DNA of 64,000 bases from Alphaproteobacteria bacterium. GTDB taxonomy: Bacteria; Pseudomonadota; Alphaproteobacteria; Sphingomonadales; Emcibacteraceae. This document shows, in pieces, positions 46,058-58,373 of this stretch. Position 1 is the first letter of the stretch. Each line of letters begins with the position of its first letter. Where the stretch lies: positions 1-64,000 of the forward strand of contig NVTE01000004.1 of the NCBI GenBank assembly GCA_002401455.1, read 5' to 3'. Position numbers and translations under genes: made by a program. The notes under the pieces were generated by a model. It worked only from the letters and a program-made list of their open reading frames with translations. It was not told where the DNA came from and ran no database searches.

Positions 46058-46692
46058 GATTTTAAAATATTCAGTTTTCTTAAATTGTCCATCACCCGTA
46101 ACAGGGGCAGGCCGAGAATAGAAAAATAATCACCGTTGATTTCAGAAAAAAGCTGCGGCCCCAAGTCTTCCAGCAGATAACAACCGACTGAACTGAGGAT
46201 TTTATCGCCGGATTTTTCTAAATAGTCCGCTAAAAAGTCGTCGCTGAAATCGCGCATGGTCAAAGCAGGGCGTTCGGTTTCTAAGGTTAGAATTTCTCCC
46301 TGCCGAATCAGGGCATAAGAAGTATAAAGCATGTGGCTTTTACCCCTAAAAAAGCGCAGATGATCTTCCGCCTCTGCCCGGTCCCGGGGCTTGTCAAATA
46401 TCCGGCCCTCACAAACCAGCAGCTGGTCTGCGCCCAGAATAATCGCGTCTGGATATTTTTCACTGAGGACCAAGGCTTTATCCTGGGCCAGCCTTTCAGA
46501 TATTTCCGCCGGTGTCGCGCCCCTTGCCATCAGGCTGGCTTTCACCGCCGCCTCATCAATATCCGCGGCCTCCGCCAGACAGTCGATGCCGGCATTTTTC
46601 AACATAACCCGCCGCGACGTACTGGCCGAGGCCAGAACCAGGGGGGGCTCGGTGTCATTGGTCACGGGCGGCTTTTTCCTTGTCATCGTCAT
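46054..46692 (-). CDS. maf: Maf-family nucleotide pyrophosphatase
   Basis: LVLASASTSRRVMLKNAGI, ILGADQLLVCEGRIFDKP. Confidence 0.92.
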   Translation of the reverse strand: MTMTRKKPPVTNDTEPPLVLASASTSRRVMLKNAGIDCLAEAADIDEAAVKASLMARGATPAEISERLAQDKALVLSEKYPDAIILGADQLLVCEGRIFDKPRDRAEAEDHLRFFRGKSHMLYTSYALIRQGEILTLETERPALTMRDFSDDFLADYLEKSGDKILSSVGCYLLEDLGPQLFSEINGDYFSILGLPLLRVMDNLRKLNILKS

Positions 46693-47491
46693 ATTTATAT
46701 TTCAGTTTCATAATCGCGCCGGCGGTTTCCTCGATCGATTTGCGGGTGATATTAATCACTGGCCAGCCACGCCCAGAAATCAGCCGCTGAGCCTGTTGAA
46801 CTTCTTCCTTGATCGCCTGCTCATCCACATAGGTGGTGGTTTTATTTTCCTTTAGGGACAACAGCCGACTGCGCCGAACATGAACCAGCCGGTCGACGCT
46901 GTTGATCAAGCCAACAACAAATTTATCACCAATATTATCCAGTTCCCGGGGCAGGGGCTGATTAGGGATGATCGGCACATTGGCCGTTTTCATGCCTTTA
47001 TTGGCCAGATAGATACAGGTCGGGGTTTTCGAGGTTCGGGAAATCCCTACCAGAATGATATCGGCATCTTTAAGGCCATCCAGGCATTGACCATCATCAT
47101 GCATCAAAGTGTATTGCATGGCATCGATACGTTTGAAATATTCATCATTCAATTGATGTTGAAGACCTGGCCGAGCAATACTTTTTTGTCCCAAATGATG
47201 GCCAAGCTCCCGAATAATACCATGAAGCACAGAAATATAGGGCCAGCTATGTTTCTCACAGGCCGCAATCAGGACATCCTCAATATCCTGATTAACCAGG
47301 GTAAACATGATAATCCCCGGCCGTTCATCAAATTCCGGGATCAACCTTTCCATATGGCGGGCGGTTCTGATCATAGGCCAGTAATGTTTCTGGGCATTAA
47401 TTTCGGGAAACTGGGCCAGGGCCGCCTTGGCTACCTGTTCCAGCGTATCACCCGTGGCATCAGAAACCAGATGAAGATGAATATTTTTCAT
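46655..47491 (-). CDS. Pyruvate, water dikinase regulatory protein-type kinase/pyrophosphorylase (PPSR, DUF299)
   Basis: HLHLVSDATGDTLEQVAKAALAQF, DIILVGISRTSKTPTCIYLANKG P-loop; start M5 of ORF 46655..47503. Confidence 0.93.
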   Translation of the reverse strand: MKNIHLHLVSDATGDTLEQVAKAALAQFPEINAQKHYWPMIRTARHMERLIPEFDERPGIIMFTLVNQDIEDVLIAACEKHSWPYISVLHGIIRELGHHLGQKSIARPGLQHQLNDEYFKRIDAMQYTLMHDDGQCLDGLKDADIILVGISRTSKTPTCIYLANKGMKTANVPIIPNQPLPRELDNIGDKFVVGLINSVDRLVHVRRSRLLSLKENKTTTYVDEQAIKEEVQQAQRLISGRGWPVINITRKSIEETAGAIMKLKYKYDDDKEKAARDQ

Positions 47492-47913
47492 AAAAGAAAC
47501 CAACTTTACATGTAAATTCTGTTTTTATCCAAATAGTGGATTACGGGGATAACTAGCCCTATTTTCCAAAAGCCGGATTTTCATACACCTTATTCTTTTT
47601 TTATAACTGGTTTTATCCTTATGGGGATAATTTTTATTTTTTTTATAAATAAGGTGAGTTCTTTTTTCTTAACAAAAGTTATCCCCGTTATCCCCCTTAT
47701 TATATTCCTTGATTAACACGCTTATCCATAGACTTATTCCCAAAAATCCGCTATGTGATGACGTTCTAATACTATAAACTATTCTGTATAGTGTTCTGGG
47801 GATAACTTTTAATCCCCCATATTCACAGGTATCCACTACAACAACTACTTTTTATTTATATAAAAATAATATAGTAGTTTTCTATTCAGTGTATAACTTC
47901 GGCCATAAATCAT
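47492..47913. other. Putative chromosomal replication origin (oriC)
   Basis: AT-rich gap between PPSR/DUF299 and hemE; multiple TTATCC-type 9-mers on both strands (e.g. 47525..47533 TTATCCAAA, 47679..47687 TTATCCCCG and 47688..47696 TTATCCCCC in tandem, 47722..47730 TTATCCATA, 47797..47805 TGGGGATAA); A/T-only stretch near 47850..47872; divergent flanking genes; parS/parAB nearby. Confidence 0.82.
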
Positions 47914-48954
47914 ATGACAAACGATAAACTTTTTCTTTCCGCCTTAAAAAGCAACCCTGTTAACAGAATTCCTTTCTGGTATATGCGACAAGCGGGTCGT
48001 TATTTACCCGAATATATGGAACGCCGTAAAACTGCGGGCTCTTTTCTTGATCTGTGTTATTCGCCGGATTTTGCCGTCGAAGTGACCCTTCAACCCCTTA
48101 AGCGTTATCAGATGGACGCCGCCATTCTGTTCTCAGATATTCTCGTGGTGCCCCAAGCTTTGGGCCAACACCTTGAATTCAGACAGGGTGAAGGACCGGT
48201 TCTAACGCCCGTGGATACGGCCAATAAAATAAACGGGCTTAGCATGGAAGGCTTTCATGAGCATCTGGCGCCCGTGTATGAAACGGTTAATAGACTTGGG
48301 GCGGCAATCCCGGAGACAACAACCTTAATCGGTTTTGCCGGTGCCCCCTGGACTGTAGCCACTTATATGGTACAGGGCCATGGGTCCCCCGACCAGGCCG
48401 CGGCACGGTCATTGGCTTTCCAGGAGGAAGACGTCTTTCAGGGGCTGATGGACCTTCTGGTTAAGGCCACATCGGAATATCTGATAAAACAGATTGAAAA
48501 AGGCGCTGAGGTGATCCAGCTTTTTGATACTTGGGCCGGAAATCTGCCTGATGATCAATTTCGTAAGTGGGCCATCGAGCCGGTGAAGAAGATTATCGAG
48601 AATATTCGGGTAAATCATCCAGATATTCCGATTATTGGCTTTCCCCGGGGGGCCGGTTGCCGTTATCCGGAATATATTAGGGCTACAGGCGTCACAGCAG
48701 TCTCTATTGATACCACGTTACCCTTGGACTGGGTTCGGGACCATATACAGCCTCTGTGCCCCGTACAGGGCAATCTAGATCCTCTGCTGCTGGTTGCTGG
48801 CGGCCCGCAAATGGAAAAGCGGGTTCTGGAAATCCTTGATTGTCTGAGTGGTGGACCATTTATCTTTAATCTGGGCCATGGCATTGTGCCGCAAACCCCG
48901 CCGGAACATGTGGCGCGAGTTTCTGAAATTGTCCGGGAATATCAGATAAAATAA
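47914..48954 (+). CDS. hemE: Uroporphyrinogen decarboxylase
   Basis: PFWYMRQAGRYLPEYMERRK, GFAGAPWTVATYMVQGHGS, GFPRGAG. Confidence 0.97.
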   Translation: MTNDKLFLSALKSNPVNRIPFWYMRQAGRYLPEYMERRKTAGSFLDLCYSPDFAVEVTLQPLKRYQMDAAILFSDILVVPQALGQHLEFRQGEGPVLTPVDTANKINGLSMEGFHEHLAPVYETVNRLGAAIPETTTLIGFAGAPWTVATYMVQGHGSPDQAAARSLAFQEEDVFQGLMDLLVKATSEYLIKQIEKGAEVIQLFDTWAGNLPDDQFRKWAIEPVKKIIENIRVNHPDIPIIGFPRGAGCRYPEYIRATGVTAVSIDTTLPLDWVRDHIQPLCPVQGNLDPLLLVAGGPQMEKRVLEILDCLSGGPFIFNLGHGIVPQTPPEHVARVSEIVREYQIK

Positions 48955-55732: not shown

Positions 55733-55748
55733 TGTTTCACGTGAAACA
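55733..55748. promoter_or_regulatory. parS: parS centromere-like site 1, TGTTTCACGTGAAACA
   Basis: Exact 16-bp palindromic ParB-binding consensus, intergenic between mnmE and mnmG. Confidence 0.95.
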
Positions 55749-57731: not shown

Positions 57732-58373
57732 ATGCCACAGATACTTTCCGAGAAAAAGTTTTTTGATATCATCAATGTTTCACGTGAAACACAGGAAAAC
57801 ATTCGTCTTTATGCGGGGTTGCTGACAAAATGGCAGAAAAAAATCAATTTGGTCAGCGAGACGACTTTGCCTGATCTATGGTCCCGCCACTTCTATGACA
57901 GTTACCAGCTTAAAAAGTTGTTTGATGTGTCTCGGGCTGAAAATTCCGGACAAAAGCTACAAATTCTTGATATTGGCAGTGGTGCCGGCTTTCCAGGTCT
58001 GTTACTGTCGATGCTTGACCTTGGCACCTTCCACATGGTGGAAAGTAACGGCAAAAAAAGCACCTTCATGCGGCAGGTGATCCGGCAGACCAACTGCAAG
58101 GCCATTGTCCACACGGCGCGGGCGGAAGAACTTACAGCCTTCCCTGTAGACTATATTATTTCGCGAGCCTGTGCGTCTCTGAATAAGCTGTTTGATCTGG
58201 GGCGAAACTTCATTCGGGAAGACACGATTTGTCTGTTTTTAAAGGGCCAGATTGCAGATCAGGAAATTGAAGAAGCCAGAGCCAATTGGTCATTCGAAGT
58301 TGAAAAGTTCACAAGTGTCAGCGCCGAATCCGGCGTGATACTGAAACTCAGTCATATAAAGGCTTTGAGGTAG
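57732..58373 (+). CDS. rsmG: 16S rRNA (guanine(527)-N7)-methyltransferase
   Basis: FDIINVSRETQENIRLYAGLLTKWQKKINLVSETTLPDLWSRHFYDSYQL, ILDIGSGAGFPGLLLSML. Confidence 0.96.
   Translation: MPQILSEKKFFDIINVSRETQENIRLYAGLLTKWQKKINLVSETTLPDLWSRHFYDSYQLKKLFDVSRAENSGQKLQILDIGSGAGFPGLLLSMLDLGTFHMVESNGKKSTFMRQVIRQTNCKAIVHTARAEELTAFPVDYIISRACASLNKLFDLGRNFIREDTICLFLKGQIADQEIEEARANWSFEVEKFTSVSAESGVILKLSHIKALR
57776..57791. promoter_or_regulatory. parS: parS site 2, TGTTTCACGTGAAACA, inside the rsmG coding sequence
   Basis: Exact 16-bp palindrome; its in-frame core aat gtt tca cgt gaa aca encodes NVSRET. Confidence 0.95.

Follow-up and report, generated by a model that had tools for sequence, protein, structure and literature searches.

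A hemE-linked chromosome replication origin with imperfect DnaA boxes in an Emcibacteraceae bacterium, and a possible relaxed trinucleotide rule for its opening

An intergenic gap in the window (the whole stretch of 64,000 nucleotides analysed here) is almost certainly the chromosome replication origin (oriC), of the hemE-linked alphaproteobacterial kind. The first-pass annotation had placed a putative origin in this gap, and the reading rests on the gene neighbourhood, the GC-skew minimum of the contig itself, the whole-chromosome skew of two complete relatives, the clustering of DnaA boxes and the conservation of these boxes at matching positions, all of which agree. The locus joins a known class, that of the hemE-linked alphaproteobacterial origins, and this kind of site is already known. 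Both its location and the identity of its boxes are supported by the computation presented here. The gap and its flanks are as follows.

46655-47491, minus strand: PPSR (kinase-pyrophosphorylase) gene (COG1806, DUF299), left flank; PF03618, 303 bits
47492-47913, no strand: origin gap, 422 bp, 30% GC
47914-48954, plus strand: hemE, uroporphyrinogen decarboxylase gene, right flank; URO-D PF01208, 379 bits

Profile matches to the kinase-PPPase family on the minus strand and to URO-D on the plus strand bear out the naming of the two flanks as PPSR and hemE, and the gap is AT-rich as described and as is characteristic of the hemE-linked class, with 30% GC compared with about 45-59% elsewhere in the window. 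The reported change in gene direction was also recovered, the longest-ORF picks being 31 minus and 10 plus to the left of the gap and 12 plus and 1 minus to the right. The order PPSR (minus), gap, hemE (plus) was found again in most of the alphaproteobacterial loci examined. At one of these loci (L070), PPSR and hemE lie about 1.6 kb apart versus the usual distance of about 0.4 kb, a layout that suggests a gene insertion or an altered origin arrangement. No known RNA family was found in the gap, and sigma-70 consensus promoters and terminators did not occur in it above the level of shuffled sequences.

GC skew was negative in each 2-kb step to the left of the gap and positive to the right, and the cumulative minimum on the 155,851-bp contig fell at 48172, 258 bp past the right edge of the gap and inside hemE. 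Since the assembly holding the window (2.08 Mb in 17 contigs, 69% complete) is too fragmented for a full-circle skew, we turned to a congener with a complete genome (G010, 4.19 Mb) and took forty 20-kb stretches from it. The skew was positive in each stretch on the arm that runs from 4.10 Mb across 0 to 1.80 Mb, and negative in each one between 1.89 and 4.10 Mb, so that the sign changes at hemE and near 1.87 Mb and not at dnaA; the local minimum, at 4,099,335, lies 240 bp inside hemE. G017, a second complete genome and from a different genus, behaves alike, its minimum falling about 220 bp into hemE. A skew minimum elsewhere on the chromosome had been named beforehand as the result that would speak against an origin in this gap; on the contig itself and in both complete relatives, the minimum stays at hemE.

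These data bear on the rival view that the origin lies beside dnaA and that the gap is merely a regulatory region of hemE or PPSR. This view can point to the dnaA gene of the same contig, only 78 kb from the gap, and to the promoters of two divergent genes, PPSR and hemE, which the gap must also hold. Against it, the skew does not change sign at dnaA on the contig or in G010, where dnaA stands at coordinate 1 of the record within the positive-skew arm, which places the origin away from dnaA. Neither TTATCCACA nor TTATCCCC (see below) forms a cluster near dnaA in the lists of their occurrences in the organism's own genome. An origin adjacent to dnaA is thus refuted in silico by the skew and the absence of a box cluster, and we regard it as extremely improbable.

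Two copies of TGTTTCACGTGAAACA, which we take to be the usual parS sequence, flank mnmG at 8 and 10 kb from the origin; parS sites are expected close to an origin.

55733-55748, no strand: parS-type site TGTTTCACGTGAAACA, perfect palindrome
57776-57791, no strand: parS-type site TGTTTCACGTGAAACA, perfect palindrome

Many TTATCC-type 9-mers had been listed in the gap, and every one of them is present at the coordinate given. The hexamer TTATCC occurs eight times in the gap, versus a mean of 0.6 and a maximum of 4 in 5000 first-order Markov sequences built from the gap. Against the same null, TTATCCCC occurs five times where 0.06 are expected, and none of the 5000 sequences reaches five. Genome-wide (2.08-Mb assembly), TTATCCCC occurs 89 times, and the gap holds its sole cluster (five in 261 bp) as well as the genome's single copy of the double site TTATCCCCNTTATCCCC. 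No perfect TTATCCACA was found in the gap, while 26 are present elsewhere in the genome, unclustered. The gap therefore has the DnaA-box cluster of the hemE-linked class without containing a perfect box. We aligned the gap with those of 14 relatives and scored column conservation within the genus, with the following results for the sites outside the unwinding module described below.

47525-47533, plus strand: TTATCCAAA, single-mismatch 9-mer; column conservation 0.53, not kept in the genus
47544-47552, minus strand: DnaA box TTATCCCCG; TTATCCACA in the sister genus; conservation 0.95
47613-47621, plus strand: TTATCCTTA, inverted pair with the box at 47622; conservation 0.79
47622-47630, minus strand: DnaA box TTATCCCCA, W-type core TCCCCA; conservation 0.88
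47679-47687, plus strand: DnaA box TTATCCCCG, first of a head-to-tail pair; TTATCCACA in the sister genus; conservation 0.85
47688-47696, plus strand: DnaA box TTATCCCCC, second of the head-to-tail pair; TTATCCACA in the sister genus; conservation 0.74
47721-47760, plus strand: genus-conserved block opening with the box TTATCCATA (47722-47730); conservation 0.89, box 0.98
47797-47805, minus strand: DnaA box TTATCCCCA, beside the unwinding module; TTATCCACA in the sister genus; conservation 0.91

Most sites are held at matching positions across the 14 relatives, and within the genus most boxes score 0.85-0.98 versus 0.65 outside the features. Of the listed 9-mers, the genus has not kept the one at 47525 and has kept the one at 47613 only in part. 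In the sister genus (L118), the positions 47544, 47679, 47688 and 47797 are all occupied by TTATCCACA and 47622 by TTATCCAGA, so that four of the five TTATCCCC positions are perfect boxes there; the genus of the window itself has few of them, a single one in L111 and another in L115. From these perfect counterparts in L118 and the conservation at matching positions, the 9-mers of the gap are best read as probable DnaA boxes in which position 7 has changed from A to C, a drift in the direction of the weak W-type. The core TCCCCA is found in the boxes at 47622 and 47797, and the three other boxes carry TCCCCG or TCCCCC. TCCCCA is the six-base consensus core given for the weak W-boxes of Caulobacter in a review (PMC4285127, citing Taylor 2011). 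The earlier guess that these are lineage-specific or weak DnaA sites is therefore supported by both the sister-genus boxes and the W-box core, and the all-imperfect box set is a lineage trait.

It could be argued that, although the gap is the origin, the TTATCCCC repeats are bound by some protein other than DnaA: perfect DnaA boxes are missing from the gap, and the organism's own DnaA (L211) has an ordinary base-reading motif, GRDHTT. However, the same positions carry TTATCCACA in the sister genus, and the review describes weak binding of TCCCCA sites by Caulobacter DnaA (PMC4285127), which makes this explanation very unlikely. An altered DnaA specificity as the cause of the TTATCCCC boxes is not supported either, because GRDHTT is unchanged in the own DnaA and in all relatives read; lower affinity, not new specificity, would be the simpler reading of these boxes.

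In the own DnaA and in those of same-genus relatives such as L203, L205, L208, L209 and L212, the linker between domains III and IV starts with RANVRR. At this place, RAN(D/N)R stands in the remaining relatives that were read, so the change from D to V is confined to the genus; it has no evident link to the boxes.

Within the genus, few parts of the gap are as well conserved as the 40-bp block at 47721-47760 (CTTATCCATAGACTTATTC...CCGCTATGTGAT), which the sister genus lacks. This block may hold the hemE promoter or the site of a genus-specific regulator.

In Caulobacter crescentus, the origin Cori has the same flanks (hemE and COG1806), a similar length (404 bp) and an A/T-rich opening site, according to PMC1914354 and PMC4285127, and its DnaA boxes likewise include weak TCCCCA sites (PMC4285127). 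Different from Cori, the gap has box cores of TTATCCCC and lacks a G-box (TGATCCACA), and a search of it for CtrA (TTAA-N7-TTAA), IHF and GANTC consensus sites found none, so that the CtrA and IHF sites known from Caulobacter are missing. These absences, like that of a perfect DnaA box, count against the origin reading. We treat CtrA sites as a variable and not a defining trait, since they are also missing from several other hemE-linked origins (PMC1914354). The hemE-linked origins of Rickettsia and Wolbachia resemble the gap in having hemE at one edge, in being A/T-rich and in their length of about 380-460 bp; unlike the gap, they were identified by TTATNCACA boxes and usually have IHF and CtrA sites (PMC1914354).

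The best-conserved segment of the gap, 47819-47873, scores about 0.9 in the genus versus 0.65 outside the features, and consists of the following parts.

47819-47827, plus strand: DnaA box ATATTCACA of the module; TTATCCACA in the sister genus (L118)
47828-47832, plus strand: 5-bp spacer GGTAT
47833-47847, plus strand: five trinucleotides CCA CTA CAA CAA CTA; lower strand 3'-GGT GAT GTT GTT GAT-5', DnaA-trio-like
47849-47873, no strand: pure A/T block of 25 bp, expected duplex-opening site; conservation about 0.90

A nearly pure A/T block had been noted at about 47850-47872; the pure run spans 47849-47873, and a single C separates it from the trinucleotide array. Within this segment, 47823-47842 is the 20-bp stretch of the gap that the genus has conserved best. 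In the basal unwinding system of Bacillus, a box and a short spacer are followed by lower-strand DnaA-trios, 3'-GAT-5' (PMC8287927). The module is like that of Bacillus subtilis in layout, with a box, a short spacer containing G, a period-3 array and an A/T block in the same order and on the same strand (PMC8287927), and its 5-bp spacer keeps the array well within 16 bp of a DnaA box. Unlike in B. subtilis, the trinucleotides are 3'-GNT-5' and not 3'-GAT-5', and the alphaproteobacterial DnaA has Tyr or Phe for Asn187 and Lys for Arg202. The central bases of the lower strand read G, A, T, T, A, and a run of at least three consecutive 3'-NAN-5' trios is absent from the array; a search of the gap by the published rule (three or more trios with central adenine) gave a match in another register at chance level (34 of 200 shuffles). 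As the central-adenine rule does not hold here, we claim a likeness to the basal unwinding system and not membership in it.

Similar arrays recur across the class. Runs of at least four C-N-A triplets were found on the hemE strand in 36 of 107 alphaproteobacterial hemE gaps, compared with 1 of 107 on the other strand and 0.2% of shuffles. These runs adjoin the A/T block, typically precede hemE by 60-120 bp, and read on the lower strand as 3'-GNT-5', without the central adenine needed in Bacillus. When 32 de-duplicated loci were anchored by the box alone, disregarding triplets, C made up 64% of first places and A 64% of third places, while the second place was A 28%, C 43% and T 28% with almost no G. 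Of 21 de-duplicated loci, 16 have their longest run in one and the same register relative to the box (binomial 7e-5, which is overstated because the loci are related). The pattern is not present in every locus, and many Rhizobiales gaps were wrongly anchored by the simple box rule. As a control, no CNA array in an origin-like setting was found near dnaA in 27 non-alphaproteobacterial loci, a weak comparison because their origins may lie outside the stretches examined. Some origins of the class have, beside the expected opening site, arrays whose trio strand is devoid of central adenines, for example six consecutive CAA in L049 and CAA CCA CCA CAA CCA in L053.

The array could also be sequence of no special kind that merely separates the last box from the A/T block and plays no part in opening. 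Bacillus needs the central adenine (PMC10721633), which three of the five trinucleotides here lack, and the published rule matches the gap only at chance level. The strand bias of the C-N-A runs, their fixed register to the box and the conservation of 47823-47842 argue the other way, and we consider a role-free array unlikely.

In the Bacillus DnaA structure, Asn187 holds the central adenine, and changing this adenine to thymine or guanine impairs opening and replication, whereas cytosine is tolerated (PMC10721633). At the equivalent position, the 59 alphaproteobacterial DnaA proteins examined have an aromatic residue without exception (Tyr in 51, Phe in 8), compared with Asn, Ala, Gln or Thr in 21 other Pseudomonadota. 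Arg202, which holds the guanine in Bacillus, is Lys in 59 of 59, and Glu228 is kept. The reader of the variable base would thus differ, while the residues near the constant G are similar, and the strand-opening repeats of the class seem to break the Bacillus-derived rule. We tentatively propose, as a possibility that falls somewhat short of even, that Alphaproteobacteria open hemE-linked origins by a divergent module in which 3'-G-N-T-5' trinucleotides, set at a constant register from the box, are read by a DnaA with Tyr or Phe at the place of the adenine-reading Asn187; the central base would no longer be selected, whereas the outer G and T would be. The link between the Tyr/Phe residue and the GNT arrays appears as a correlation only, a single clade-level coincidence and not proof, since both could stem from a single change on the tree. 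No paper describing this link was found in the literature searched, from which most subscription-journal papers are absent, and the part concerning the trinucleotides and the DnaA residue may be new.

In our main reading of the gap as oriC, DnaA would gather on the mostly weak array of TTATCCCC-type boxes in both orientations, including the head-to-tail pair, and a filament would grow from the last box, ATATTCACA (47819), over the five lower-strand trinucleotides. The filament would open the adjoining 25-bp A/T block, where helicase would be loaded and from which forks would depart in both directions. We infer these steps of filament assembly, opening and helicase loading from work on Bacillus and Caulobacter.

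Together, our analysis places the origin with good support in a lineage represented here mostly by metagenome assemblies, and offers a positional comparison in which one genus has perfect DnaA boxes where another has weak W-type boxes. The class-wide pattern makes it testable whether the Bacillus base-capture rule holds when the adenine-reading residue differs, and it is this relaxed trinucleotide rule that merits experimental work.
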